35,335 nt of DNA, from positions 1-35,335 of the forward strand of contig PNNC01000157.1 of assembly GCA_013824015.1 (NCBI GenBank), written 5' to 3'. Under the pieces are notes generated by a model, which saw only the letters and a program-made list of their open reading frames with translations, did not search any database and was not told the origin of the DNA. The stretch is from Polaromonas sp. (lineage in GTDB: Bacteria > Pseudomonadota > Gammaproteobacteria > Burkholderiales > Burkholderiaceae_C). Shown here one piece after another: positions 2,594-27,859 of this stretch (the stretch's first letter is position 1; the number at the start of each line of letters is the position of its first letter). Position numbers and translations under genes: made by a program.

Positions 2594-3952
2594 TCAGGCA
2601 GCTTTCTTCATGGCAGGAGAAAACATGTTCTCCATTTCATGGCGCACCTTCCAGGCGGCGGTGGAGGTGTCCATCGCCACATCGGCCCAGCTCAGGCTCT
2701 GGCCTTTCCTGACCGCACGCACGACCTTGATGTTGTGCGCCAGGCCCAGCGGCAGGCCGCCCATTTTGACCGAGGTGTCGGCCGGCAGCAGCTTGCCCCA
2801 GACCGTGTAACCCCCTTCGCCGTCGAGCATGTCACCGGGCTTCAGGTCGCGTTTGGCGGTGGCCACCACGTCGGCGTTCCAGCAGGTCGCCACACCGGTC
2901 GGCTCACCGCGCAAGGCCACGCTGGCCACCGACACGCCGACTTCGAGGCCGATCAGATGCCAGCGCTTGTACAGCGTGAAATAACGCCCGCTCGGGTCGG
3001 TATGTGCGTTGTATTCCTCAAAGCAGTTCTTGATGTAGTCGGTTTCGGCCTCGACCGTGACCCAGACACCCATGCGGATGTCGTAGGGAATCTTGCGGCC
3101 GTTGGCTTCCAGCGAGGAGATCACCTCGACCATGCCCTTGCGTTCGAGCACGCCGCCTTCGCTGATCGGGCGTGTCACATACGGAATGTCTTCCACGCTG
3201 GCCGGCGGATACAGCAGGCCGTTCGACGGCACGCTCAGTCCGGTGGCATTGGCCACCGCCGTCGATTCGATGGACGGCTTGGAACCGTCGAGGAAGCTGT
3301 TGAACATCTTGGGGTTGAGGCCGCCACGCTCGGCCTGTTCCGGCGTCAGGCCGTAGTTGCCCCAGACGGTGTCGGGCGTCGATTCGCAAAAATGCGGCAG
3401 CCATTTGTGGCCGCGGCCCGCCGCCACCACCGGGAAGCCGCAGGTACGCGCCCAGTCCACCAGGTCGCAGATCAGCGCCGGCTGGTCGCCAAAGGCCAGT
3501 GAATAGACCACACCGGCTTCGGCGGCCTTGCGCGCCAGCAGCGGGCCGCAAAAGGCATCGGCTTCCACCGTGACGTTGACCACGTGTTTGCCGTGTGCAA
3601 AGGCCTGCAGGCAGTGTTCGACCGCCGCCACCGGGTTGCCGGTGCACTCGACAATGATGTCGATCTGCGGATGGGTCACCACGGCATTCCAGTCGTCGGT
3701 GATCCAGGTTGCTCCTGTTTTGATAGCTGCCTGGGCAGATTCCGCATGGGCTGAGGCCGGATTCCACCCCACACGCGCGAGGTTGCTGCGGGCAGCGTCA
3801 GGTGACAGGTCAGCGATCGCGACCAGGTGCACGCCCGGCGTTTTCGGGATCTGCGCGAGGTACATGGAGCCGAACTTGCCTGCGCCGATCAGGCCGATGC
3901 GGATCGGTTGGTTGTCGGCCGCGCGTTGCTGGAGTTTTGTGTACAGGTTCAT
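2594..3952 (-). CDS. NAD(P)-dependent oxidoreductase with C-terminal SAF domain (homoserine-dehydrogenase-like)
   Basis: A 452-aa protein with an N-terminal Rossmann fold (IGLIGAGKFGSMYL, about residues 19-32) resembling homoserine dehydrogenase and Gfo/Idh enzymes, and a C-terminal SAF-like domain (around KRDLKPGDMLDGEGGY). This architecture is known as a predicted homoserine dehydrogenase with SAF domain; its substrate is not established as far as I know. An ATG seven codons upstream (3973) is possible, but the ATG at 3952 has GGAAG six bases before it and is preferred. That GGAAG lies inside the end of a 143-bp palindrome. Residues encoded by about 3708-3766 (ending AAIKTGAT) come from an interspersed repeat copy. 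It is probably co-transcribed with the dioxygenase gene upstream and the dehydrogenase gene downstream. Confidence 0.85.
   Translation of the reverse strand: MNLYTKLQQRAADNQPIRIGLIGAGKFGSMYLAQIPKTPGVHLVAIADLSPDAARSNLARVGWNPASAHAESAQAAIKTGATWITDDWNAVVTHPQIDIIVECTGNPVAAVEHCLQAFAHGKHVVNVTVEADAFCGPLLARKAAEAGVVYSLAFGDQPALICDLVDWARTCGFPVVAAGRGHKWLPHFCESTPDTVWGNYGLTPEQAERGGLNPKMFNSFLDGSKPSIESTAVANATGLSVPSNGLLYPPASVEDIPYVTRPISEGGVLERKGMVEVISSLEANGRKIPYDIRMGVWVTVEAETDYIKNCFEEYNAHTDPSGRYFTLYKRWHLIGLEVGVSVASVALRGEPTGVATCWNADVVATAKRDLKPGDMLDGEGGYTVWGKLLPADTSVKMGGLPLGLAHNIKVVRAVRKGQSLSWADVAMDTSTAAWKVRHEMENMFSPAMKKAA
3708..3766 (+). repeat. Interspersed ~57-bp repeat, copy A (inside the SAF oxidoreductase gene)
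   Basis: This copy contains the blocks GCT, TTTTGATAGCTGC, TCCGCATGGGCTGAGGCC and GGATT with the spacing seen in six other copies in the window. Read on the minus strand it encodes the 19-residue peptide that starts NPASA and ends AAIKTGAT in the host protein. Confidence 0.85.
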
Positions 3953-3953
3953 T

Positions 3954-4096
3954 GGGTACTTCCGTAAATCCATTTTTCGGGCGAATTGCGTCGTTGCGCG
4001 GTGCTCGCAATCCTCATGTACAGGAAGTACATTCCGGTTGCTGTGCTCCGGGCGCCTCGCACTTCATCCCGAAATTCTGAATTTCCGGAAGTACCC
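3954..4096. repeat. 143-bp imperfect palindrome between two operon genes
   Basis: The outer arms are GGGTACTTCCG (3954-3964) and its exact reverse complement CGGAAGTACCC (4086-4096). The next blocks also pair (TTTCGGG with CCCGAAA, and GCG with CGC), and the centre is ATGTAC-AGGAA-GTACAT (4016-4032). The symmetry centre of the outer arms and of the inner hairpin agree within one base. It lies between the dioxygenase stop and the SAF oxidoreductase start, and its left arm holds the GGAAG ribosome binding site of the latter. It looks like an interspersed palindromic element and could stabilise upstream mRNA or mask the downstream start. Confidence 0.85.
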
Positions 4097-4120
4097 GAGG
4101 CGCTCGCGTCGATTCGGTGT

Positions 4121-5002
4121 TCAGGCCGCCTTGCGCTCAGCCACGATTTCCTCCATCGATGTCTGCAGCGCGGTCGCCGGTACGCCGTCTTTCCAGGGCA
4201 GGGTGACCGGGTAGTCCTGCAGCAGGCAGTCGTCGGGCAGGCATTCGATCGGCGTGAAGTCGCGGTGTGCGATGTACTCGGGGCGTTTGTGGCGGCGGAT
4301 GTGGTTGCTGACCGCACACAGGCTCAGGTAAACGCTGACGCGGTTGAAGGGCGACAGGTTGCTGCCCGAGGCATGCACCAGGCAGGAATGGAACAGGATC
4401 ATGGAGCCAGCCGGGCCCTTGGGACTGACGATGCCGCCCTGCTTGCCGCCGGCGCGTTGCACCAGCTGGCGGATCAGGTCGTTGTCCACGGTCCACAGCG
4501 GGTAGCTGGTGGTGGTCAGGTCGTGTTTCGCGTCGACCACGCCCTTTTTGTGGCTGCCGGGGATAAACATCAACGGGCCGTTGTGTTCGTTGACGTCGTC
4601 GAGAAAAATCGCGACGTTCATCGCGCGTTCGGTCGGCATCAGGTCGTCGTTGAGCCAGGTGCCGTAGTCCTGATGCCACTGCCAGACGTCGCCTTCAAAC
4701 GCCATCTTGCCGTTGATCTTGAACTGGTGCATGTAGAGCTTCTCGCCGAGCAGGTCTTGCACCGGTTCGATCATGCGCGGATGCCGTCCCAGTTTGGCAA
4801 AGGGCTCGCTGTACATGTGCGCGGCGAAGTTGGTGCGCACCGCGTCCTTGCCTTTTTCGCGCACGTTGTAGTCTTCGCGCCGGCTGTACAGCTCGGGCAC
4901 CGCGTCGTTCAGCAGCTGCGTTTCTTCGGGTGTGAACAGGCCGGGGAAAAACAGGTAGCCGTCACGGTCGAATTGCGCGAGTTGCTCGGGGCTCAATTTC
5001 AT
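4121..5002 (-). CDS. Phytanoyl-CoA dioxygenase (PhyH) family protein, ectoine-hydroxylase-like
   Basis: A 293-aa non-haem Fe(II)/2-oxoglutarate-dependent dioxygenase. The iron triad is visible as HQD in WQWHQDYGTW (about residues 109-118) and the distal His in SCLVHASGSN (about residue 215); the Arg in NRVSVYLSL is placed to hold 2-oxoglutarate. The segment WHQDYGTWxxDDxMP resembles the WHSDFETWHxEDGMP signature of ectoine hydroxylase, so it belongs to that branch, but no ectoine genes are nearby. The start follows AGGAGA-like sequence (4999-5012 on the minus strand). It is the first catabolic gene after the GntR gene and probably starts the pathway by hydroxylating the substrate. Substrate unknown. 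Confidence 0.88.
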   Translation of the reverse strand: MKLSPEQLAQFDRDGYLFFPGLFTPEETQLLNDAVPELYSRREDYNVREKGKDAVRTNFAAHMYSEPFAKLGRHPRMIEPVQDLLGEKLYMHQFKINGKMAFEGDVWQWHQDYGTWLNDDLMPTERAMNVAIFLDDVNEHNGPLMFIPGSHKKGVVDAKHDLTTTSYPLWTVDNDLIRQLVQRAGGKQGGIVSPKGPAGSMILFHSCLVHASGSNLSPFNRVSVYLSLCAVSNHIRRHKRPEYIAHRDFTPIECLPDDCLLQDYPVTLPWKDGVPATALQTSMEEIVAERKAA

Positions 5003-5035
5003 TTTTTGTCTCCTGGGGTCGGGTGGGTCGGTGCG

Positions 5036-5728
5036 TCAGACAGCGTGGACATTGCCGGGCGCCGCCGGCTGAAGTGCGTGGTTCAGCAGGCCGGCCAGGT
5101 TGCGGCTGGCGTCTTCGCCGTGTTCGCGGATCAGGGTTTCGGCGGTGAGGGCATCACCCGCGGCGATGGCACGGGCAATGGCTTCGTGTTCGTCCCAGAT
5201 CGATTCGCGCATGGTGGACACCTGCAACACGGCCCCCATCGCGCGGCGGATGTGATGCCAGTGCAGTTGCGCGCTCTGGGCAATCAGGGGGTTGCCCGAG
5301 GCCGCGTAAATCGCGCCATGAAACTGCGCATCGGCGGCCATCATGGCCTTGACGTCGTTGCCGCGGGTTGCCGCGCGCCCGCGCGCGATCAGTTCGGGGT
5401 CGATCTGGAAGCGGGTTTGCGCCGCCAGGCGGGCGGCCAGCGCGTCGAGTGCGCTGCGCACCTGGTAAATCTGCATCAGCCAGGCCACATCCAGCGGCGC
5501 GACCAGCACGCCGCGTCCCGGCGCATCCAGCACAAAGCCGTCCTTCTTGAGCAAGCGCAAGGCCTGCAGCACCGGCTGGCGCGACACCGCGAGCTGCTCG
5601 GCAACATCTTCCTGCATGATGCGCGCGCCCGGTGCAAGCGACCCCTCACTGATCGCGTCAAGCAGGCAGCGGTAAACCTGATCGACCAGGTCGGGCGTGG
5701 ATTCGATTTTGACGAGTTGTGTCTTCAT
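5036..5728 (-). CDS. GntR-family transcriptional regulator, FadR/FCD subfamily
   Basis: A 230-aa regulator. The N-terminal winged helix is visible in LAPGARIMQEDVAEQLAVSR and continues to the wing LDAPGRGVLVAPLD; the rest is an all-helical FCD ligand-binding domain with the metal-type histidines spread through it (for example DAQFHGAIY and ALLNHALQ). The frame is open further upstream to 5902, but the ATG at 5728 fits family length and leaves a normal control region. It heads the minus-strand operon and probably represses it and the divergent hydrolase gene through the palindrome at 5732-5751. The likely effector is a substrate or intermediate of the dioxygenase pathway (inference). Confidence 0.9.
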   Translation of the reverse strand: MKTQLVKIESTPDLVDQVYRCLLDAISEGSLAPGARIMQEDVAEQLAVSRQPVLQALRLLKKDGFVLDAPGRGVLVAPLDVAWLMQIYQVRSALDALAARLAAQTRFQIDPELIARGRAATRGNDVKAMMAADAQFHGAIYAASGNPLIAQSAQLHWHHIRRAMGAVLQVSTMRESIWDEHEAIARAIAAGDALTAETLIREHGEDASRNLAGLLNHALQPAAPGNVHAV

Positions 5729-5731
5729 TCG

Positions 5732-5751
5732 GTACTCTGTATACAGAATAC
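5732..5751. promoter_or_regulatory. Palindromic GntR/FCD operator
   Basis: The core TCTGTATACAGA (5736-5747) is a perfect palindrome; with flanking GTA and TAC it is 20 bp with one mismatched pair. The GTATAC core is typical of FCD-type GntR sites (FadR/VanR class). It lies three bases before the gntR start and 100 bp before the divergent hydrolase start, so it fits autoregulation plus control of both sides. Confidence 0.8.
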
Positions 5752-5850
5752 TTTGACTGCTTGGCCTGGTCACAGCGGGTTTACCCGCGGGTCGGCAGGA
5801 TGCGGGCCGAATGTGCCACCATTCACGCAACCTTTTTTTCAGGAGCCCCC

Positions 5851-6717
5851 ATGAGCCATCCCGATCCCGCCTGGCTGGACCGCATGTACAACAATCGCGC
5901 ACTGGTGCCCGACCATGCCGACTATTTCAGCCGCTGGGAAGAACGTTCCGGGCAGGCGCGGCATTCGCAGCCCTGCACGCTGGACATCGCCTACGGCGCC
6001 AGCCCCGGCGAGAAACTTGATGTTTTTCCCGCGGCCCGGACGGCGGCCGGTGGCGCACCGGTGCTGGTGTTCATCCACGGCGGTTACTGGCGCTCGCTGG
6101 ACAAGTCGGAGCATTCCTTTCTTGCGCCGGCCTTCACCGAGGCGGGTGCCTGCGTGGTCATGCCCAACTACGATTTGTGCCCCGCAGTGACGATTCCCGA
6201 CATCGCGCTGCAGATGGTCCGTGCCCTGGCCTGGACCTGGCGCAACATCACGCGCTTCGGCGGCGACCCGGCGCGCATCACCGTGGCCGGCCATTCGGCC
6301 GGCGGCCATCTGGCGGCCATGCTGCTGGCCTGCGAATGGAAAAAACACGCCCCCGATCTGCCGGCCGACCTCGTCAAGAACGCGCTGTCGATCTCTGGCC
6401 TGTACGAACTCGACTCGGTGATGCACACGCCCTTCCTGACGGACTCGCTGCGCCTGACGCCGAAACAGGTCGCACAGGCCAGCCCGGCCTGGTTTCCCGC
6501 GCCCCAGCGCGGCGTGCTTTACACCGTGGCTGGGGCCGATGAAAGCGAAGAGTTCCTGCGCCACAACGCGCTGATCGAACAGGCCTGGGGGCCCAAGGCC
6601 GTGCCGGTGCGCGAAGCCCTGCTGGGCCTGAACCATTTCAGCATTGTCGAAGCGCTGGTGCAGCCCGGCCACCGGCTGCACCAGTTGGCCCTGCAACTGC
6701 TGGCCGCCACCGCCTGA
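5851..6717 (+). CDS. Alpha/beta hydrolase, kynurenine-formamidase-like
   Basis: A 288-aa esterase-fold enzyme. It has the oxyanion-hole motif HGGYW (about residue 75), the nucleophile elbow GHSAGGH (Ser near residue 149), a candidate acid in AGADESEEF and the catalytic His in LNHFSIVE near the C-terminus. HGGYW with this spacing is characteristic of AFMID-type arylformamidases and related esterases. A good ribosome site AGGAG (5841-5845) supports the ATG at 5851. It is divergent from the GntR operon and shares its operator, so it may hydrolyse an amide or ester linked to that pathway. Tryptophan degradation is not supported: no kynureninase or tryptophan dioxygenase gene is present here. Confidence 0.88.
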   Translation: MSHPDPAWLDRMYNNRALVPDHADYFSRWEERSGQARHSQPCTLDIAYGASPGEKLDVFPAARTAAGGAPVLVFIHGGYWRSLDKSEHSFLAPAFTEAGACVVMPNYDLCPAVTIPDIALQMVRALAWTWRNITRFGGDPARITVAGHSAGGHLAAMLLACEWKKHAPDLPADLVKNALSISGLYELDSVMHTPFLTDSLRLTPKQVAQASPAWFPAPQRGVLYTVAGADESEEFLRHNALIEQAWGPKAVPVREALLGLNHFSIVEALVQPGHRLHQLALQLLAATA

Positions 6718-6894
6718 CGCCCGCCGGTGCCGCCAGGCGATCGGGCAACTGGAGGTGGCTGGCAACCAGAGCAATTCACTCCTGCCGCCGCTGGCAAACA
6801 GCGGACCTCCATGGTGCCTCGCAGCCTGAAAACCGGAGTCCGCATGACGTTGCGGTCGTCTTCATCGACCTCAATTCACTTGCTCGTGACCCAC

Positions 6895-6928
6895 AAAAAA
6901 GGCGATGCCCGCAGACATCGCCTTTTTT
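6895..6928. terminator. Bidirectional Rho-independent terminator
   Basis: Arms AAAAAAGGCGATG (6895-6907) and CATCGCCTTTTTT (6916-6928) with an 8-base loop lie between the converging hydrolase and glutamate dehydrogenase genes. The rest of 6718-6947 shows nothing further. Confidence 0.93.
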
Positions 6929-6947
6929 GGAGGGAGCGGCTGCCCGC

Positions 6948-8264
6948 TCAGGGGTACAGGCCGCGCAGTTCGCGTGTGTGCAGGATGCGCTTGCAGGCGA
7001 CGATGAAGGTGGCGGTGCGCAGGCTGACCTTGTGGTCTTGCGACACCTGCCAGACACCGGCGAAGGCTTCTTTCATGATGCGCACCAGGCGGGCGTTGAT
7101 TTCGGCCTCGTCCCAGAAGAAGCTGGAAAAATCCTGCACCCATTCGAAGTAGCTGACGGTCACGCCGCCGGCGTTGGCGATCACGTCGGGCAGCACCAGG
7201 ATGTTGCGCTCCTGCAGGATGTCGTCGGCTTCCGGGGTGGTCGGGCCGTTGGCGCCCTCGATGACCATGCGGGCCTTGATGCGGCCGGCGTTGTGCCGGG
7301 TGATCTGCTGCTCCAGCGCGGCCGGGATCAGGATCTCGCACTCGACGTCCCAGAACTTGTCGTCTGCCAGGACTTCGGCGCCGGCAAAGCCGCCGACGCT
7401 GCCGGTCTCGGCCACGTGTTTGAGCAGCGAGGGCACGTCCAGGCCGGCTTCGCGGTAAATCGTGCCGCCGTGGTCCTGCACCGCGACAATGCGTGCGCCG
7501 GCCTCGGCAAACAGCTTGCCGGCGACGCCGCCCACATTGCCGAAGCCCTGCACTGCGACGCGGGCCTTGCTGATGTCCAGCCCGATGTGGCTGGCGGCTT
7601 CGGCGCCGACGGTGAACACGCCGCGGCCGGTGGCTTCGCGCCGGCCCAGCGAGCCGCCCAGGTCCACCGGCTTGCCGGTCACCACGCCGGTCGAGGTCGA
7701 GCCGGTGTTCATCGAGTAGGTGTCCATCATCCAGGCCATGATCTGCTCGTTGGTGTTGACGTCGGGCGCCGGGATGTCCTTGTTCGGGCCGATGATGATG
7801 CCGATCTCGCTGGTGTAGCGGCGGGTCATGCGCTCGAGTTCACCGCGCGAGAGTTTTTTCGGGTCCACGCGGATGCCGCCCTTGGCGCCGCCATAGGGCA
7901 CGTTGACCGCAGCATTCTTGATCGACATCCAGGCCGACAGCGCCATCACCTCGGACAGGGTCACGTCCTGGTGGAAGCGCACACCGCCCTTGCCGGGCCC
8001 GCGCGAGACGTTGTGCTGCACGCGGTAGCCCTCGAAGTGCGCCACCGTGCCGTCGTCCATGTGGATGGGCACATCGACGATCAGGATGCGCTTGGGGCGC
8101 TTGAGGGTTTCGGCCCAGCGTGCCAGGTTGCCCAGGTGCGGGATCACCCGGTCCACCTGCTGCAGGTAGTTGCCCCAGGGGCCGAGCTGGTCGGCCTGCA
8201 GGTAGGAGGGCAGGGGATGCACGGGCGCTGGGGCGACGGCGGCGGGGCTGGACGTGGACGACAT
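6948..8264 (-). CDS. gdhA: Glu/Leu/Phe/Val dehydrogenase family, glutamate dehydrogenase
   Basis: A 438-aa amino-acid dehydrogenase, most likely glutamate dehydrogenase (glutamate + NAD(P)+ to 2-oxoglutarate + ammonia). The N-terminal catalytic domain shows the substrate region [20 protein letters not shown], the catalytic Lys in PYGGAKGGI and the conserved PAPDVNT; the Rossmann domain has VQGFGNVGG. Length and layout match the RocG/GudB-like, usually NAD-dependent, type. The ATG at 8264 is chosen because AGGAG sits seven bases before it; a TTG two codons earlier is less likely. It is third in a minus-strand set after marR and a tautomerase gene and has its own upstream palindrome (8343-8367). 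Confidence 0.93.
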
Positions 8265-8342
8265 GGACAAACTCCTGGTGAAGATGCGATGTCCGACAGC
8301 TTAGGCCGATGGCTCCGGCCTGTCCAAGGCCGGCTTGCTGCA

Positions 8343-8367
8343 ATGTTATGCAGTTAATGCATAACAT
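8343..8367. promoter_or_regulatory. Perfect inverted repeat upstream of glutamate dehydrogenase
   Basis: ATGTTATGCA (8343-8352), a 5-base spacer and TGCATAACAT (8358-8367) form perfect 10-bp arms, 79-103 bp before the gdhA start and just after the tautomerase stop. There is no T-run, so an operator for an unlinked regulator is more likely than a terminator. Confidence 0.7.
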
Positions 8368-8372
8368 GGGTT

Positions 8373-8771
8373 TCAGGGCTTGGCCTTGATGTAGCGGTAT
8401 TCCTGGGTCAGCCCGCCGAAACCGTAGGCTTCGGCCCGCACGTCCTGCACATGGATGTAACTTTCCTGATGCAGCGGCGCCAGCAGCTTGTCGAAGGCGG
8501 CGAAACATTCGGCGATGTACTGCGCCTTCTCGTCCTTGGTGTTGGTGCCGTCCACCACCTTGATGTCGAAGTAAAAGCTGTTTTTTCCCTGGGCGGCGAG
8601 GGTGCTGCCGCCGACCACCCACTGCTCGGGCGGCACGTACGTCAGCGTGATGGCGGTCAGCTCGCGCTTCTTGCGCAGGATGCGGGTGGTGAGTTCCAGC
8701 AGGGTTTCGGCGACCGCCTGGGTCAGGGCAGGGCTGGCAGGCTGGCTGATCTTGACGTTGAGGATGGGCAT
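8373..8771 (-). CDS. Tautomerase-superfamily protein
   Basis: A 132-aa protein beginning MPILNVKIS, giving Pro1 after Met removal; Pro1 is the catalytic base of the 4-oxalocrotonate tautomerase superfamily. At twice the 62-aa canonical subunit it resembles the fused, roughly 130-aa members such as the cis-CaaD and malonate semialdehyde decarboxylase types. The ATG at 8771 is favoured over an upstream ATG at 8834 because AAGGAG is correctly placed and Pro1 is created. It lies downstream of marR on the same strand, with an operator copy at 8794-8808 between them, so it is probably a target of that regulator. Substrate unknown. Confidence 0.85.
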   Translation of the reverse strand: MPILNVKISQPASPALTQAVAETLLELTTRILRKKRELTAITLTYVPPEQWVVGGSTLAAQGKNSFYFDIKVVDGTNTKDEKAQYIAECFAAFDKLLAPLHQESYIHVQDVRAEAYGFGGLTQEYRYIKAKP

Positions 8772-8793
8772 GGAAGGCTCCTTGTGAAAGTGA

Positions 8794-8808
8794 TTAGCTA
8801 TGCAACTA
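8794..8808. promoter_or_regulatory. MarR-type operator, copy 1 (before the tautomerase gene)
   Basis: TTAGCTATGCAACTA is an imperfect palindrome identical to the site at 9271-9285. It lies 23 bp upstream of the tautomerase start, in the gap after marR. Confidence 0.75.
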
Positions 8809-8830
8809 TTAAGGCAAAAAAAAGCAATGC

Positions 8831-9247
8831 TCATTTGAGGGCTGAGCAGACGCCGCGGACCTTGCTGACGGTGTCGGTGAAGTTCTCCTTTCCGATCTGG
8901 CGCTGGATGCGCTGGGTGACCTGACTGCTGGCTGCGTTGAGGTCGGCCTGGATGCGCTGCGCCGCCGCCGTCGGAAACACCGACCAGTGGCGGGCATCGT
9001 GCGCCGCGTCGCGCCGCTCGACCAGGCCCAGCGTCTGCAGGCCGTCCAGCAGCCGGGTGGCGGTGGGGCGCGCGATGGTGAGTTCGGTCGCCAGTTCATG
9101 CTGCGACAGCCCGGGCCGGGCCAGCACCAGGCGCAGCAAAAAGCCCTGCGGCGGTGTCAGGCCGAAGGGTTTGAAAGCCGCGGCCCATTCACGCTCGACC
9201 ACCCGCGCCAGCGCGGTGGTGTTGAAGTAGAGGCAGTGGTCGAACAT
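8831..9247 (-). CDS. MarR-family transcriptional regulator
   Basis: A 138-aa winged-helix regulator. The recognition region is LSQHELATELTIARPTATRLLDGLQTLGLVERR, followed by the short wing ARHWSVFPT and a C-terminal dimerisation helix. It probably represses itself and the tautomerase gene through the paired sites at 8794-8808 and 9271-9285. Its best promoter is TTGCAT, 17 bp, TATCAT (minus strand, 9282 to 9254), which would start transcription at or next to the ATG, implying a leaderless message; no Shine-Dalgarno sequence is seen. Confidence 0.9.
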   Translation of the reverse strand: MFDHCLYFNTTALARVVEREWAAAFKPFGLTPPQGFLLRLVLARPGLSQHELATELTIARPTATRLLDGLQTLGLVERRDAAHDARHWSVFPTAAAQRIQADLNAASSQVTQRIQRQIGKENFTDTVSKVRGVCSALK

Positions 9248-9253
9248 GGCGCG

Positions 9254-9285
9254 ATGATAGCCGGAGTTGGTTAGCTATGCAACTA
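9254..9285 (-). promoter_or_regulatory. marR promoter with overlapping operator, copy 2
   Basis: On the minus strand, -35 TTGCAT (9282-9277) and -10 TATCAT (9259-9254) are 17 bp apart. The operator TTAGCTATGCAACTA (9271-9285) covers the -35 box and matches the copy before the tautomerase gene exactly. The -10 ends six bases before the ATG at 9247. Confidence 0.7.
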
Positions 9286-9291
9286 ATAATG

Positions 9292-9309
9292 AAAACCCCG
9301 AACAGGGGT
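9292..9309 (-). terminator. Terminator of the ABC exporter gene
   Basis: On the minus strand, ACCCC and GGGGT (9305-9309 and 9295-9299) pair around a 5-base loop and run into TTTT, 12 bases past the ABC gene stop. The stem is short, so strength is moderate. Confidence 0.6.
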
Positions 9310-9320
9310 GTCCGGATGTT

Positions 9321-11108
9321 TCAGTCCATGAACTGCAGCGCCGCCAGCCGGGCGTACACGCCGTTGGCGGCAACCAGCTGGTCGTGGGTGCCTTGCTCGA
9401 CCAGCTTGCCGTGGTCCAGCACGATGATGCGGTCGGCCTGCTGCACCGTCGCCAGCCGGTGCGCGATGACCAGTGTGGTGCGGCCCTTCATGGCGGTTTC
9501 GAGCGCGGCCTGCACCGTGCGTTCGCTTTCGGCGTCGAGCGCGCTGGTGGCCTCGTCGAGCAGCAGCAGTGGCGCGTTTTTCAGCATGGCGCGGGCAATC
9601 GCGATGCGCTGGCGCTGGCCGCCCGACAGGCGCACGCCGCGCTCGCCGAGAAAGGTGTCGTAGCCCTCGGGCAGGGTCATGATGAAGTCGTGCGCAAACG
9701 CGGCCTGCGCGGCGGCTTTGGTTTCCTCGTCGCTGGCGCCGGGCTTGCCGTAACGGATGTTCTCCAGCGCGCTGGTTGAAAAAATCACCGCGTCCTGCGG
9801 CACGATGCCGATGCGCTGGCGCAGGTCTTGCAGCGCCAGTTCGCGCGTTGGCACGCCGTCCAGCGAGATGCGGCCCGAGCCCGGGTCGTAAAAACGCAGC
9901 AGCAACTGGAACACCGTGCTTTTGCCGGCGCCGCTGGGCCCGACGATGGCCACGGTTTCACCGGGCGCCACCGCCAGCGAAAAATTGCTGAGCGCCGCCT
10001 GCAGCGGACGGGACGGGTAGTGGAAGTCCACCGCTTCGAATTTGATAGCACTGCCGGACCGCAGGACAGGGGCTGCAGCCGGATTTGATGGTGAGGTGAC
10101 GGGCGAACGCGTTTCCAGCAACTCCATCAGGCGTTCGGTCGCGCCGGCGGCGCGCAGCAGGTCGCCATACACCTCGCCGAGCACCGCGGTGGCGCCGGCC
10201 AGGATGATCACATAGACCACGGTCTGGCCCAGGTGGCCGGCCGTGATGTCGCCACGCATCACCGCCTGGGTGCCCTGGTACAGGCCCCAGAGCAGCGCGC
10301 CCGAAGTCGCGATGATGATGAAGGCGATCAGCACCGAGCGTGCCCGGGTGCGCCGCACCGCGGTGTCGAAAGCGTCCTGGGTCGAGGCGTCGAAACGCGC
10401 CGACTCGCGCGCTTCGGCGGTGTAACTCTGCACCACCGGAATCGCGTTGAGCACCTCGGCGGCGATCGCGCTGGAGTCGGCCACCCGGTCCTGGCTGGCG
10501 CGCGAGAGTTTGCGCACGCGCCGGCCGAACCAGACCGAGGGCAGCACGATCAGCACCAGCACGCCCAGCACCTGGAACATCAGGTAGGGGTTGGTATAGA
10601 CCAGCATGCCGAGCGCGCCCACGCCCATGACCGCATTGCGCAGGCCCATGCTCAGCGACGAACCGACGACGGTCTGCACCAGCGTGGTGTCGCCGGTCAG
10701 GCGCGACAGCACCTCGCCGGTCTGGGTGGTTTCAAAAAACTCCGGGCTTTGCCGCACCACATGGCCATACACCGCATTGCGCAGGTCGGCGGTCACGCGT
10801 TCGCCCAGCCAGCTCACCATGTAGAAGCGGCCCGCCGAAAAAAGGCCCAGCGCCGCCGCCACGCCGAACAGCTCGAAGAAGTGGGTGCGCAGCGCCATCA
10901 GTTGCTGGCCCTTGTCGGACGCGCTCAGGCCGCCGTCGATCAGGCTGCGCAGCGCCAGCGGGAACACCAGCGTGGCGACCGCCGCCATCACCAGGAAAAA
11001 CATGGCCAGCAGGATGCGGCCACGGTAGGGGCGCAGAAAGGGCAGCAGGCCGGACAGTGAGCGCGGCGCGCCCTTGGCCGGCTGCGCGGTGGAGGATGAA
11101 GTAACCAT
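9321..11108 (-). CDS. ABC exporter, fused permease and ATPase (MsbA-like half transporter)
   Basis: A 595-aa inner-membrane half transporter that would work as a homodimer. The N-terminal permease domain has about six hydrophobic helices (residues 30-310). The ATPase domain has Walker A GPSGAGKS (near 395), signature LSGGQRQR, Walker B LLLLDEATSALD and H-loop VIAHRL. The domain linker contains a peptide derived from an interspersed repeat (SNPAAA to SAIKFEA, bases 10034-10092). It is divergent from a MarR gene that leads an Emr efflux operon and shares that 78-bp control region, so drug or lipid export under MarR control is plausible. Substrate cannot be inferred. Confidence 0.92.
   Translation of the reverse strand: MVTSSSTAQPAKGAPRSLSGLLPFLRPYRGRILLAMFFLVMAAVATLVFPLALRSLIDGGLSASDKGQQLMALRTHFFELFGVAAALGLFSAGRFYMVSWLGERVTADLRNAVYGHVVRQSPEFFETTQTGEVLSRLTGDTTLVQTVVGSSLSMGLRNAVMGVGALGMLVYTNPYLMFQVLGVLVLIVLPSVWFGRRVRKLSRASQDRVADSSAIAAEVLNAIPVVQSYTAEARESARFDASTQDAFDTAVRRTRARSVLIAFIIIATSGALLWGLYQGTQAVMRGDITAGHLGQTVVYVIILAGATAVLGEVYGDLLRAAGATERLMELLETRSPVTSPSNPAAAPVLRSGSAIKFEAVDFHYPSRPLQAALSNFSLAVAPGETVAIVGPSGAGKSTVFQLLLRFYDPGSGRISLDGVPTRELALQDLRQRIGIVPQDAVIFSTSALENIRYGKPGASDEETKAAAQAAFAHDFIMTLPEGYDTFLGERGVRLSGGQRQRIAIARAMLKNAPLLLLDEATSALDAESERTVQAALETAMKGRTTLVIAHRLATVQQADRIIVLDHGKLVEQGTHDQLVAANGVYARLAALQFMD
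10034..10092 (+). repeat. Interspersed ~57-bp repeat, copy B (inside the ABC exporter gene)
   Basis: It carries TTTGATAGC, then GGGGCTGCAGCC and GGATTTGAT at family spacing. On the minus strand it encodes the linker peptide beginning NPAAA and ending SAIKFEAV, in the same frame as copies A and C. Confidence 0.8.
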
Positions 11109-11150
11109 GGACTGAGTTTAACGACAAACATTGGCGCTGCAACCACAGGC

Positions 11151-11179
11151 TTGACAATCATTGTCTAGACAAGTAATAT
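11151..11179 (+). promoter_or_regulatory. Sigma70 promoter with palindromic MarR operator
   Basis: -35 TTGACA (11151-11156) and -10 TAATAT (11174-11179) are exactly 17 bp apart. The spacer holds the perfect palindrome TTGTCTAGACAA (11161-11172), and ACAATCATTGT (11154-11164) forms an overlapping one. The transcript would start at about 11186, at the marR ATG (11187). Bound repressor would block RNA polymerase; the divergent ABC gene starts 78 bp away and may respond too. Confidence 0.85.
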
Positions 11180-11186
11180 TGCGGCC

Positions 11187-11717
11187 ATGGTCACCCTACG
11201 CACTTCCGATCCTGTTGCCGACGCGATCTCCTGTCCCATGGTCGAGTTCTACCGGGCAGAGGGTTACACCCCTGACGAAAGCATCGGCTACCTGATGCGC
11301 CGCATCCTGTCGCTGATCGCCCAGGGTGTGGAACGTGAACTCGAGCCCACCGGCCTGACCAATGCGCAATGGGTGCCGCTGCTCAAGCTGCATATGGGCA
11401 AGGGTTCGACGGCCGCCGAGCTGGCGCGCGAATGCGAGCTGGATGCCGGCTCCATGACACGCCTGCTCGACCGGCTCGAGGCCAAGGACTTGTGCCGCCG
11501 CAGCCGTTCCTCGGAAGACCGGCGCGTCGTCAAGCTCGAACTGACCGAAGCAGGCCGCGCCGCGGCCAAAGAAATCCCCGCGATCCTGAGCCGCGTGCAA
11601 AACGCCCACCTCGCCGGTTTCACGGTGGAGGAGTGGCAGGTCCTGAAAGGCTATTTGCGCCGCATTCTCGACACCGCGCAGACCCTGCAAGCCTCCCTCG
11701 AAAAAAATGAAAAATAA
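11187..11717 (+). CDS. MarR-family regulator of an Emr-type efflux operon
   Basis: A 176-aa MarR protein. The winged helix is STAAELARECELDAGSMTRLLDRLEAKDLCRRSRSSEDRRVVKLELT (split here by helix, recognition helix and wing), with dimerisation helices at both ends. The gene is equivalent in position to emrR. The ATG at 11187 coincides with the predicted transcription start, so translation may be leaderless; an internal ATG at 11238 has no better ribosome site. Its 3' end overlaps the outer-membrane factor gene by 11 bp, implying coupling. It likely represses the whole efflux operon and itself until a hydrophobic or phenolic ligand binds. Confidence 0.92.
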   Translation: MVTLRTSDPVADAISCPMVEFYRAEGYTPDESIGYLMRRILSLIAQGVERELEPTGLTNAQWVPLLKLHMGKGSTAAELARECELDAGSMTRLLDRLEAKDLCRRSRSSEDRRVVKLELTEAGRAAAKEIPAILSRVQNAHLAGFTVEEWQVLKGYLRRILDTAQTLQASLEKNEK

Positions 11718-13320
11718 CAGCACACCTTCGATCTTTCCCGACGCCTGCGCCGACGGCCGGGAATCCGCGCCCGCCGGCCTGCCGCTGTGGCACGCGTCCT
11801 TTCGCATGGCCCTGGTCACGACCGCCGGCCTGGTCGCCGCCGGCCTGATGGCGACGGGCCTGGCCGGCTGCGCCGACATGTCGGGCATCCAGTCGCAAGC
11901 CAGCCTGCGCGAACCCGCATCGCTGGGCCTGCCCACTGCCGCGGCCGCGGCGACGCCGGTGAGCGCCGACTGGTGGCGCGCGTTTGGCGACGAGCAGCTC
12001 AACACGCTGGTGGCCCAGGCCTTGCAGAACAATCCCAACCTGAAGGTCGCGCAGGCGCGGCTGGCGCGCGCCCAGGCGGTGACCGAGGTGGCCGACGCCG
12101 CCAAGCTGCCGCAGATCAGCGGCGGGCTGGACCTGACGCGCCAGAAGTACACCGCCAATGGCGCTGTGCCGGCGCCGCTGGCCGGCTCCATCCGCGAAAG
12201 CGGCACGCTGCAGCTCAGCGGCAGCTGGGAGCTCGACTTCTTTGGCAAGTACAGCGCGGCGCTGGCGTCCGCGCTGGGCAGCGTGCGTGCCGCGCAGGCT
12301 GACACCGAGGCTGCGCGGGTGCTGCTGGCCAGCAATGTCGCGCGTGGCTACTTCCAGATCGCGCGGCTGAACGAACAGTTGCAGGTCGCGCAGCGCACAC
12401 TCGCGCAGCGCCAGGAGACCCTGGGCCTGGTGAACGACCGCGTCAACGCCGGCCTGGACACCCAGCTCGAGCTGCGCCAGAGCGAAGGCGGGCTGCCCGA
12501 AGCGCGGCTGCAGATCGAAAGCCTGCAGGAGCAACTGGCGCTGGCCCGGAATGCGCTGGGCGCCCTGGTGGGGCAGCCCAATCAGGCGGTAGCCCTTGTT
12601 CCGCCTGCATTGTCAGCTATCAAAACAGAAGCAATGGCGGCTTCGCTTCCGGCCGACCTGCTGGGCCGGCGCGCCGACATCAGCGCCGCGCGCTGGCGCG
12701 TGGAGGCCGCGTCCAGGGATGTGGCCAATGCGAAGACCCAGTTTTATCCCAACATCAACCTCGTCGCATTCGCCGGTTTCTCCAGCATCGGCCTGTCCCG
12801 GCTGCTCGACGCCGGCAGCCAGCAGTGGGGCGTGGGCCCGGCGCTGCGTTTGCCGATTTTTGACGCCGGCCGGCTGCGCGCCAACCTGCGCGGCAAAAGC
12901 GCCGACCTCGACGCCGCGGTGGAAAGTTACAACGCCGCCGTGATCGACGCGGTGCGCGATGTGGCCGACCAGGTCGCGTCCAGCCAGGCCATCACCCGTC
13001 AGCAGACCGAGCAGCGCGCCGCGCAGACCGCCGCCGAAGGTGCGTATGAGATCGCGGTGCAGCGTTACAAGGCGGGTCTGGGCAACTACCTGTATGTGCT
13101 GACCGCCGAAACCAGCGTGCTGGCGCAGCGCCGCCAGGCGGTGGACCTGGCCGCACGCGCGCTCGACACCCGGGTCGGCCTGATGCGCGCACTCGGCGGC
13201 GGCTACAGCGCCGACGCCGCCACCGGCGCGCTCGATGCTCCTGAAAAAAGAGCAGACAAGCCAGACGTGACAGGGGCTGGAGGCCTTTTTTCCTCCAATT
13301 CCGCGGTACCCAGCCGCTGA
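11707..13320 (+). CDS. NodT-family outer-membrane efflux lipoprotein (TolC-like factor)
   Basis: A 537-aa outer-membrane channel for tripartite efflux. A hydrophobic stretch ends in the lipobox LAGC (Cys near residue 55), so it is probably a lipoprotein; the n-region before it is unusually long, and ATG 11806 would give a shorter signal but lacks basic residues. Two OEP repeats follow, with family features such as DWWRAFGDEQLN, GRRADI and the periodic AxxxQ coiled-coil segments. Repeat copy C is inside the gene (N292 to about residue 310, ending SAIKTEAM) and copy D supplies much of the last 30 residues. It overlaps marR by 11 bp and precedes emrA and emrB. Confidence 0.92.
   Translation: MKNNSTPSIFPDACADGRESAPAGLPLWHASFRMALVTTAGLVAAGLMATGLAGCADMSGIQSQASLREPASLGLPTAAAAATPVSADWWRAFGDEQLNTLVAQALQNNPNLKVAQARLARAQAVTEVADAAKLPQISGGLDLTRQKYTANGAVPAPLAGSIRESGTLQLSGSWELDFFGKYSAALASALGSVRAAQADTEAARVLLASNVARGYFQIARLNEQLQVAQRTLAQRQETLGLVNDRVNAGLDTQLELRQSEGGLPEARLQIESLQEQLALARNALGALVGQPNQAVALVPPALSAIKTEAMAASLPADLLGRRADISAARWRVEAASRDVANAKTQFYPNINLVAFAGFSSIGLSRLLDAGSQQWGVGPALRLPIFDAGRLRANLRGKSADLDAAVESYNAAVIDAVRDVADQVASSQAITRQQTEQRAAQTAAEGAYEIAVQRYKAGLGNYLYVLTAETSVLAQRRQAVDLAARALDTRVGLMRALGGGYSADAATGALDAPEKRADKPDVTGAGGLFSSNSAVPSR
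12580..12638 (-). repeat. Interspersed ~57-bp repeat, copy C (inside the outer-membrane factor gene)
   Basis: On the minus strand it reads GCTTCTGTTTTGATAGCTG, then GGGCTACCGCCTGATT at family spacing, very like copy A. On the plus strand the host gene reads it as the peptide NQAVA to SAIKTEAM, the same frame used in copies A and B. Confidence 0.85.
13236..13293 (+). repeat. Interspersed ~57-bp repeat, copy D (3' end of the outer-membrane factor gene)
   Basis: GCTCCTG, a changed centre, then GACAGGGGCTGGAGGCC and a T-run match the family. It is in the opposite orientation to the gene from copies A to C and encodes the tail APEKRAD to GAGGLFS, close to the stop codon, so it appears to have replaced or extended the C-terminus. 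Confidence 0.7.
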
Positions 13321-17411: not shown

Positions 17412-17636
17412 ATGACTTCTGCTACCTTTTTCCCTGGTTCCACCCCTTCGTCCAGCACCGGCAAGCGTTCCGCACCGGCCGCTGCGCTGGTCAACAAGGC
17501 TGTGGCGGGTGCCCAGGCCGCCTTCAAGGCGCCCCGCGCCGTGATCAGCGCCGTCGCCGCTTACCCGTGGATGACGCAAGCCATGCTGGCCGGCATGAGC
17601 CCGCGCGCCCGCCGCCTGCTGCGCGCCGACTACTGA
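17412..17636 (+). CDS. Small basic/hydrophobic protein, function unknown
   Basis: A 74-aa protein. The ATG at 17412 has AAGGAAA eight bases upstream and is preferred over ATG 17358. The N-terminal 25 residues are Ser/Thr/Pro-rich; the middle is an Ala/Val/Lys amphipathic stretch (AALVNKAVAGAQAAFKAPRAVISAV, split into two helices in effect), then AYPWMTQAMLAGMSPRARRLLRADY. I do not recognise a family. Codon use resembles the neighbours and there is a promoter and regulator next to it, so it is likely a real gene. The end RRLLRAD is echoed in decayed form at about 18917-18935. Confidence 0.65.
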   Translation: MTSATFFPGSTPSSSTGKRSAPAAALVNKAVAGAQAAFKAPRAVISAVAAYPWMTQAMLAGMSPRARRLLRADY

Positions 17637-17652
17637 GCCGCTGCGCCTCTTG

Positions 17653-17694
17653 CTGTTGTAGATCAAGGGGCGCCGTCCCGTGCCGGCGCACACT
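17653..17694 (+). promoter_or_regulatory. FNR/CRP-like promoter module, copy 1
   Basis: CTGTTGTAGATCAAGG (17653-17668) followed at fixed distance by GGCGCACACT (17685-17694). The ATCAA half matches FNR/ANR half-sites and the left half is weaker. The -10 is poor. It lies in the 285-bp gap before the CDF gene, whose leader of about 220 bases also has a hairpin GATGCC/GGCATC (17743-17759). Confidence 0.5.
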
Positions 17695-18854: not shown

Positions 18855-18958
18855 CAGCTTGCTTTCCCCTTCCGGCCACATGCCAGCCGGCCGTGCGGTG
18901 GGGGTGGGGAATCACCGCGGCCTGCTGCGCGCCGGCGATGGGGTCCAGACGCCTTCTC

Positions 18959-19000
18959 CTGTTGTAGATCAAGGTCGGAGGACCGGGGGCGGCGCAGAAT
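18959..19000 (+). promoter_or_regulatory. FNR/CRP-like promoter module, copy 2
   Basis: CTGTTGTAGATCAAGG (18959-18974) and GGCGCAGAAT (18991-19000) repeat the module at 17653 with the same internal spacing. CAGAAT at 18995-19000 is a fair -10, which puts the site near -41.5, the class II activator position, for the SDR gene at 19092. Confidence 0.6.
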
Positions 19001-21136: not shown

Positions 21137-21156
21137 TTGAGCCGGCAAGCCCGGAT

Positions 21157-21213
21157 GCTCACTATTTGATAGCGGTATAGGCACGGCTGACATGGGCTGA
21201 AGGCCAAAATGAT
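21157..21213 (+). repeat. Interspersed ~57-bp repeat, copy E (intergenic, before eutB)
   Basis: GCTCACTATTTGATAGCGG, then GACATGGGCTGAAGGCC at family spacing. It lies just after the kinase stop and 145 bp before the eutB start. Confidence 0.85.
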
Positions 21214-25242: not shown

Positions 25243-25258
25243 TCTGCAGTTGCCGGAT

Positions 25259-25312
25259 GCTACTGATTTGATAGCTGCTCAGGACCGTCCGGCATGGGCT
25301 GGGGGCCAACAA
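25259..25312 (+). repeat. Interspersed ~57-bp repeat, copy F (intergenic)
   Basis: GCTACTGATTTGATAGCTGC, then CCGGCATGGGCTGGGGGCC at family spacing. It starts 17 bp after the lysR stop and is close to the family consensus. Confidence 0.88.
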
Positions 25313-25365
25313 TGTCCTGAAACGCCAGCGGGCGGTGGCAGCGCCGACACCCCTGCCGGCTGCAG

Positions 25366-26860: not shown

Positions 26861-26885
26861 ACGGTGTCTGCCGGGGCGGTGACTT

Positions 26886-26942
26886 GCTACTGAATTGATA
26901 GCGGATGGCCCTTGTCGGACAAGGGCTAGCGGCCGATTTTTC
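26886..26942 (+). repeat. Interspersed ~57-bp repeat, copy G (intergenic)
   Basis: GCTACTGAATTGATAGCGG, then GGACAAGGGCTAGCGGCC and a T-run. It lies between the direct repeats and the Bug pseudogene stop. Confidence 0.85.
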
Positions 26943-26983
26943 TTTTGGTTGTGTTCAGGAAGCGCTGCACCCGAGGCGACGCA

Positions 26984-27322
26984 TCAATCGGCGACAAAGC
27001 CACTGGCCTTGATGACACGGCCCCAGCGGACGGATTCCGCTTCCATGTTTTTCAGGAAACGGTCGCCGCAGATGCCCGGCGTGACGGTCAAACCGGCCGT
27101 GCTCATGCGCGCCTGCACGTCGGGCGACGCGGCAAACTGCTGGTGCGCCTCGGTCAGGCGCTGGATGATGGGCGCCGGCACACCCGTGGGCGCGGACAGG
27201 CCGAACCAGACGGTGGTGGCGAGCTGCGGCAAGCCGATCTCGGCGACCGTCGGCACGTCCGGCAGCTGCGCTGAGCGCTGGGTGCCGGTGGTCGCAAAGG
27301 CGATCAGCTTGCCGGCCTTGAT
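26984..27322 (-). pseudogene. Bug/TctC tripartite-tricarboxylate receptor, C-terminal fragment
   Basis: About 112 residues of the C-terminal part of a Bug-family periplasmic solute-binding protein: HIKAGKLIAF, LPDVPTVAEIGLP, VWFGLSAPTGVPAPII and a normal C-terminus ending GFVAD. A full Bug protein is about 320 aa, so two thirds including the signal peptide is gone. Similarity stops abruptly near 27320, where the sequence becomes the sigma-factor fragment in the opposite direction. The frame has no internal stops, so the loss is probably recent. No product is expected. Confidence 0.88.
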
Positions 27323-27859
27323 GTGCGCCTGTCGACCGATGAGCGCGCGGCCTTTTTGTTGCGTCAGGTGTTTGACCACGATTACGCCGAGGTGGCGGCG
27401 CTGCTGGGCAAGACCGAAGCGGCCTGCCGTCAACTGGTGCACCGCGCGGCCGAACGCGTGAAGCAGGAGCGCCCGCGTTTCGAGGTACCGAAAGCAGCGC
27501 ACCGCCGCCTGCTCGCGCAGTTTTTGCAGGCGGCGCGCAGCGGCCAGCGTGGCGACATGCAGGCGCTGCTCGCGGACGATGTGCAACTGGTGGGTGACGG
27601 CGGCGGCAAGGTGCAGTCCTTCGGCAAGATCCTGCAGGGCGCGTACCGCATCGCCAACCTCTACTGGGCGCTGTGGCGGCGCCTGCCCGAGCAGGTGGTG
27701 TACCGCATGGCCAGTATCAATGGCGAGCCGGGCCTGTTGCGTTATGTGGATGGCCAGCTCGAGTCGGCCCAGGCCTTTGTGACCGACGGCGAGCGCATCG
27801 TCGCCATTTACGTGGTGCGCAACCCGGACAAGCTGGCCGGCATCGCGCCGCTGTCCTGA
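27323..27859 (+). pseudogene. ECF41 (SigJ-like) sigma factor, 5'-truncated
   Basis: About 178 residues of the C-terminal part of an ECF41 sigma factor. It begins at region 4 (LSTDERAAFLLRQVFDHDYA, helix-turn-helix, HRAAERV) and continues into the SnoaL-like C-terminal regulatory domain with the family signatures DGGGKV and NPDKL near the end. Region 2, which binds the -10 and core polymerase, is missing, so it cannot work as a sigma factor. The frame is open from a GTG at 27323, but no ribosome site is seen. The break coincides with the end of the Bug fragment. ECF41 genes usually stand next to carboxymuconolactone decarboxylase, oxidoreductase or epimerase genes, and one follows here. Confidence 0.88.

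Follow-up and report, generated by a model that had tools for sequence, protein, structure and literature searches.

A dispersed 58-bp DNA motif occupies pre-existing coding positions in unrelated genes of Polaromonas

A 58-bp motif dispersed in the genome of a Polaromonas sp. recurs, within a 35,335-nt stretch of that genome (contig PNNC01000157.1 of assembly GCA_013824015.1; hereafter the window), inside three unrelated genes encoding an oxidoreductase (gene A), an ABC exporter (gene B) and an outer-membrane efflux protein (gene C). At these three sites, as at 14 of the 29 other in-gene sites of the genome that could be judged, the motif sits on coding positions that existed before it, and the net change in length does not exceed three residues. 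Repeats found in genes are usually viewed as insertions. In this case protein length is preserved at about half of the judged sites, and likewise in genes A, B and C. The reading that we favor, and to which we give roughly even weight, is that a motif bearing lineage dialects may be kept and spread in Polaromonas and its relatives by a process operating at the DNA level, which would rewrite permissive coding segments. In such a process, a trans-acting step would recognize the motif, and recombination or conversion would favor the sequences carrying it, as is thought to be the case for DNA uptake sequences; permissive, variable protein segments would be rewritten to the motif as a result, insertion-like copies would remain a minority (5 of 29), and the translated peptide would be a by-product. 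We propose more tentatively, as an idea with somewhat less than even prospects, that in Comamonadaceae motif-biased recombination alters protein sequence with no need of insertion: permissive segments would be rewritten time and again to suit the dialect then current, the motif possibly being a long uptake signal whose dialects differ between species, and housekeeping proteins would carry lineage patches set by the DNA and not by what the protein does.

The element and its copies in genes A, B and C

Searching the source genome (3.80 Mb in 234 contigs) for the exact core word GCTATCAAANNNNNNGC returned 171 matches, 91 of them forward and 80 reverse, whereas the reversed pattern gave a single one; the motif is thus over-represented on both strands, inside and between genes, a trait reminiscent of uptake sequences. 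These copies split into 106 of type 1, 64 of type 2 and one unassigned, the two types differing by the orientation of a 17-bp end module. Flanks of about 1.5 kb per side were retrieved for each listed core-word copy where the contig permitted, amounting to 513 kb, and a type 1 profile hidden Markov model (HMM) was trained on 90 copies not called in genes. In these 513 kb, whose choice for carrying the core word must be borne in mind when reading the E values, the model recovered all three in-gene copies of the window at near full length. Copy A (3708..3766, minus strand; 43.9 bits, E 6.8e-12) covers residues 71-89 of the DRL/SAF oxidoreductase encoded by gene A (2594..3973, minus strand; Pfam DRL_cat, NAD_binding_3, GFO_IDH_MocA and SAF). 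Copy B (10034..10092, minus strand; 30.1 bits, E 1.4e-7) covers residues 342-360 of the exporter encoded by gene B (9321..11108, minus strand; Pfam ABC_membrane and ABC_tran), between its membrane and ATPase domains. Copy C (12580..12638, plus strand; 40.6 bits, E 7.3e-11) covers residues 292-310 of the outer-membrane factor encoded by gene C (11707..13320, plus strand; Pfam OEP). Together, the type 1 and type 2 models identified 194 distinct copies in the 513 kb; on the reversed sequence, the only hit was one with the type 2 model (E 0.61), the type 1 model giving none at E<1. The original prediction, made from the window alone, had described a repeat of about 57 bp lying in genes at these three positions, with all three genes reading it on one strand and in one frame to yield similar peptides. 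Its positions, each inside a long coding frame, and its strand, frame and peptides are all confirmed, as are the dispersal of the repeat and its translation in unrelated genes; its size is better given as 58 bp, with 67 copies not called in genes aligning over 58 ungapped columns.

The same prediction held that the three copies are insertions, which should leave a clean gap of 19-20 residues in orthologs. No such gap was found at A, B or C, the distant orthologs running level through each site, and this outcome speaks directly against insertion. At site A, which is gap-free in orthologs, all 24 relatives match our protein in residue number; at site B so do 28 of 29 relatives, the last being longer by one residue, and at site C 15 of the 18 that span the site, the other three again being longer by one. 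Extending the comparison of site A to 80 named orthologs, the nearest of which are from Polaromonas and which include Curvibacter, Hylemonella, Ramlibacter, Variovorax and Caenimonas, gave 78 of equal length and two longer by one residue. Proteins of solved structure tell the same story: the oxidoreductase 3upl exceeds the gene A protein by three residues at the site, and gaps of at most two residues separate the gene B product from solved ABCB chains and the gene C product from 1yc9 and OprM. Gap-free orthologs, other genera and families, and homologs of solved structure together led us to reject a 19-residue insertion at any of the three sites.

Copies in other genes and their reading frames

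Thirty-eight of the 194 copies lie in coding frames as called with a codon-usage model, in five register classes. For the 35 situated outside the window, orthologous segments were sought in five genomes: the congener G033, which is rich in copies, the congener G032 (the assembly of Polaromonas JS666), which is poor in them, and three without the core word, G013, G121 and G140. Twenty-nine in-gene copies had an outgroup free of the word, and their median length difference was at most 3 residues in 14 cases, 4-9 residues in 10 and 11-18 residues in five. The five insertion-like cases are segments of TrmJ (L004), GluQRS (L005), HemD (L039), DapE (L136) and a cytochrome P450 (L137), named after NCBIfam families at scores below the full-length cut-offs. 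NCBIfam profiles agreed with the length classes for the eight segments tried. Those of TrmJ, GluQRS and DapE are about 20-24 residues longer than the best profile stretches, that of the P450 is longer by 20, and that of HemD exceeds its best stretch by 5 residues and the next by 19; segments of GcvP, RlmI and NAD synthase, all from the same-length class, are not longer than their profiles. From the outgroup lengths and the profiles, it follows that in-gene copies range from insertion to pure replacement. For one gene (L057 1811-1880), the ortholog in G033 (L319) has 48 residues where our genome has 20, which suggests a further and different expansion beside the element.

The single frame shared by genes A, B and C does not extend to the genome, where several frames are in use. 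Counted in the 58-bp register, in-gene type 1 copies number 7, 2 and 4 in the forward frames and 8 in one reverse frame, for expectations of 4.6, 3.0, 5.1 and 5.3 from freedom from stop codons alone, plus 3.0 in a reverse frame that is unused; this distribution is not different from the stop-free prediction (Monte Carlo p = 0.18). Type 2 copies, which use three frames (7, 7 and 3), do differ from it (p = 0.008). The chance of three in-gene type 1 copies sharing one frame is about 10%, and the single frame seen in the window is a small-sample effect.

DNA-level imprint, dialects and candidate explanations

Several lines of evidence point to a constraint on the DNA rather than on the peptide. 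When the 38 in-gene copies were recoded synonymously according to the codon usage of the genome, none of 4000 recodings per site reached the observed score, bearing in mind that the sites had been found by score in their own genome and that the weaker ones carry a selection bias. At orthologous places of equal length (within 3 residues), 27 of 29 scored above 15 bits in the copy-rich G033, compared to none of 19 in G032, 11 in G013, 13 in G121 and 8 in G140; random coding windows averaged -51.5 bits (standard deviation 9.1, maximum -6.5). Element segments are less conserved than their flanks (identity 0.61 versus 0.85, n = 30). Eighteen ungapped pairs between our genome and G033 differ at a mean of 15.5 of 58 bases, and the G033 members score 42.1 bits, for 8.0 bits under a decay null with changes at random positions and 28.4 bits under one with random bases at the changed positions, both of which ignore the constraint on the protein; all 18 pairs exceed both means. 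Persistence of the motif in all 18 pairs, at a nucleotide divergence of about 27%, is suggestive of recurrent pressure.

The codons of gene A are in line with this picture. The series GCT ATC AAA ACA GGA GCA recurs in copy-rich Polaromonas; GCT, ACA, GGA and GCA each account for 3-7% of the codons for their own residue in this genome. At the site, different codons, most of them ending in G or C, are found in JS666 and the other Polaromonas with few copies, several times for identical residues. Across 74 orthologs, the score of site A correlates with the density of elements in the flanks (Spearman 0.67), and a Fisher test contrasting sites above and below 12 bits, with and without a flanking copy, gave counts of 17, 5, 8 and 44 (p = 6e-7).

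The copies in genes B and C also allow a comparison of dialects. Dialect sets were built from 133 copies of our genome, 37 of the congener G024 and 31 of the congener G012, the gene C copy of G012 being excluded; those of G024 and G012 were located with models of our own dialect. The consensus sequences of G024 and G012 differ from ours, and leave-one-out assignment was correct for 192 of 201 copies. Scored against the dialects of our genome, G024 and G012, in that order, the gene C copy obtained 44.9, 41.5 and 21.0 in our genome, 40.0, 58.5 and 21.7 in G024, and 42.8, 52.0 and 67.7 in G012; the model searches list it at 34.9 bits in G024 and 37.2 bits in G012. The gene B copy obtained 35.8, 15.9 and 15.5 in our genome and 23.2, 30.0 and 24.5 in G024. 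The dialect of the host genome is thus the best fit in five gene-genome cases, three for gene C and two for gene B.

Foremost among the alternatives is short-tract gene conversion between dispersed copies, for instance through the annealing of single-stranded element DNA at partly similar genic sequence, with no selection on the motif. It would account for gap-free replacement and for the matching of dialects, and gene C of G012 looks more tract-like than the product of scattered changes, with five of six adjacent residues differing from G014 (EIRALA versus VVPAQE) and carrying the local dialect. The similarity between element and target before conversion would be low, however, and the persistence of the motif through the divergence of the 18 pairs suggests a recurrent pressure; we regard this explanation as a serious contender, if a rather unlikely one.

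A cis-acting site, be it protein-binding or a transcription or mRNA signal, selected wherever present inside and between genes, appears less likely still. In its favor, the GCT...AGC flanking the 11-base core of the end module is invariant in our copies, partly by construction as they were found through that word, and is retained in 32 of 37 copies in G024 and 25 of 31 in G012. Copies of our genome not called in genes also prefer gaps between convergent genes (43 of 144 versus 12 of 125 in the background) and are scarce between divergent ones (12 of 144 versus 44 of 125). The latter figure equally means that promoter-side spaces are avoided, which counts against this explanation, and the scarcity of the element in some congeners argues that it is dispensable. 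Over 199 genomes, the core word is abundant but patchy within the same family (0-213 per genome) and falls to control-like numbers in other families of the order (0-7 per genome). With another model (R1) applied to 61 genomes under stricter filters (E <= 0.01), where 91 or 150 candidates were scored per genome, so that counts saturate and are lower bounds, 13 of 36 congeners had 0-9 matches and the other 23 at least 35, with a cap at 91; 23 of 24 genomes from other families had none and one (G040) had a single match.

In-frame insertion at A, B and C after the manner of Rickettsia palindromic elements is very improbable in spite of the 11-18 extra residues seen at five of 29 other in-gene copies, as gaps at the three sites do not exceed one residue in the rows spanning them and none of about 19 residues exists in the 80 orthologs of site A or in the solved homologs. 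A chance likeness of Ala/Pro-rich linkers to the repeat can be set aside almost entirely: the peptides are indeed rich in Ala and Pro and in-gene copies were selected by score, but the reversed controls (0 and 1 matches for the HMMs, 1 versus 171 for the word), the synonymous recodings that never attain the observed score, and the scores below 15 bits, most near the random level, in copy-poor relatives at the same places all contradict it.

A number of observations weigh against the preferred reading of a motif kept and spread at the DNA level. The agent of recognition and of recombination or conversion is one that we infer from sequence, and the choice of sites scoring high in our own genome favors an apparent fit. 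A few places in G032 stand far above random (-5, -5 and -8 bits), and its sites may have decayed or never fully formed rather than being virgin. The link to copy number is not simple, in that two Curvibacter, one Hylemonella and others hold all or most of the gene A codons; among the relatives with these codons, some (L405, L433, L435, L440 and L464) have no copy in the 12-19 kb of flank. Of the 22 site A orthologs above 12 bits, five lack a flanking copy, and such a copy is present beside eight of the 52 that score 12 bits or less; since species are not independent, the correlation with density partly reflects ancestry. The decay nulls, as noted, leave protein constraint out of account. The dialect test bears on two genes, with a small margin between our dialect and that of G024 for gene C in our genome (44.9 versus 41.5), and gene B of G012 has no recognizable copy (0.7, 3.9 and -2.3). 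Sampled copies that lie in genes are few in both other genomes (1 of 35 in G024; 3 of 32 in G012, one being the gene C copy, retrieved on purpose). Finally, with 5 of 29 in-gene copies looking like plain insertions and 10 of 29 intermediate, more than one mode operates.

Were this DNA-level process real, protein change of non-adaptive origin could be measured in many species, with motif-rich and motif-poor Polaromonas genomes available as natural controls, and the process would point to an unrecognized recognition system in environmental bacteria.

Genomic context and known repeat systems

Beyond the three genes, the window contains three near-full copies not called in genes, all detected with the HMM on the minus strand at 21155..21212, 25257..25314 and 26884..26941; the last carries the terminal word GCTATCAAT and scores 43.1 bits with the HMM and 64.9 bits with model R1. 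It lies alongside what looks like a rearranged spot (26884-27859), where a fragment of a binding protein on the minus strand, which we take to be of the Bug/TctC type, adjoins on the plus strand the C-terminal part of a presumably SigJ-like sigma factor. A weak partial element (13251..13298, minus strand; HMM E 1e-4) overlaps the 3' end of gene C, and a counterpart is found at a similar offset in a congener (L203 3022-3073). An 82-nt direct repeat (17609-17690 and 18915-18996; 72% identity) sharing TGTTGTAGATCAAGG possibly belongs to a different repeat family. Among mobile DNA, 33 of 72,556 plasmids and 7 of 50,697 phages gave a match (plasmids at E<=1), in a search with one dialect that would recover 77-84 of the 194 copies of our own genome and from which we claim no depletion. 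A single plasmid match spanned 80% or more of the query; it lies where a TolC-family gene of the Diaphorobacter plasmid NZ_CP049912.1 begins (L517 3001-3055) and not at the gene C site; no phage match reached 80%.

A first reading of the consensus strings as a two-hairpin element was dropped. The palindrome of block 1 is weak, with 73.9% of cells paired over both helices, as against 34-43% in shifted registers and 74.3% in shuffles; pair counts compared with these shuffles revealed no covariation in the block 1 stem, and RNAalifold predicted only three pairs. No Rfam family matched the window at gathering scores. Mutual exclusion of the two half-sites of the 17-bp end module was likewise considered and rejected: our copies include 6 with both half-sites where 32.5 are expected but were selected through one of them, and the figures for G024 (2 versus 4.8 expected) and G012 (1 versus 2.3 expected) do not amount to clear exclusion.

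A search of the open-licence literature found no published description of the element. Like repetitive extragenic palindromic (REP) sequences and miniature inverted-repeat transposable elements (MITEs), it is short, dispersed and mostly outside genes; unlike them, it lacks stem covariation in block 1, its consensus has no visible terminal inverted repeats, and it forms a fixed, ungapped unit of 58 bp. The nearest named repeat that we found for these taxa is the beta-proteobacterial repeat element (BRE), which is reported to be dispersed in Bordetella, Polaromonas and other Comamonadaceae with some copies within coding sequences, measures about 90 bp with 69% GC in Bordetella, is in part arranged in tandem and is present in 29 copies in Polaromonas JS666 (PMC3110155). 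Dispersal, overlapping taxa and the presence of some copies in coding sequence are common to both; their lengths (about 90 versus 58 bp) and their numbers in JS666 (29 versus 9 matches to model R1) differ. This comparison is by published description, and the two may be identical.

Rickettsia palindromic elements, to which the original prediction likened the repeat, are small repeats translated inside unrelated genes (PMC10969869, PMC3733652). Translation inside unrelated genes is shared by our element, and the likeness extends to a minority of its other in-gene copies, as in-frame insertion is approached at 5 of 29 such sites. It breaks down at A, B and C, which are not insertions, and with regard to size (58 bp versus about 150 bp), the weak palindrome, the use of several frames, the many copies that replace residues instead of adding them, and the host, one of the Comamonadaceae.

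DNA uptake sequences (DUS of Neisseria, USS of Pasteurellaceae) have lineage dialects and are far more numerous per genome than the element described here, which has dialects of its own that its in-gene copies follow (five cases in two genes). Some copies of the element look like plain insertions, a further difference, and its length, with two conserved blocks distributed over 58 bp in place of a short core of about 10 nucleotides, counts against an uptake-like mode of maintenance. Given these differences in length, in copy number and in the occurrence of insertion-like copies, and because the element is known here from sequence alone, we do not file it as a DNA uptake sequence. Copies of uptake sequences are dispersed on either strand, both between genes and in their permissive parts, with new copies lying opposite unrelated sequence or gaps in relatives (PMC2397512). 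Of the known systems, they come closest to our element in behavior. The element shares this dispersal on both strands, within permissive gene parts and between genes, and our best reading is that it probably resembles DNA uptake sequences more closely than it does Rickettsia palindromic elements.

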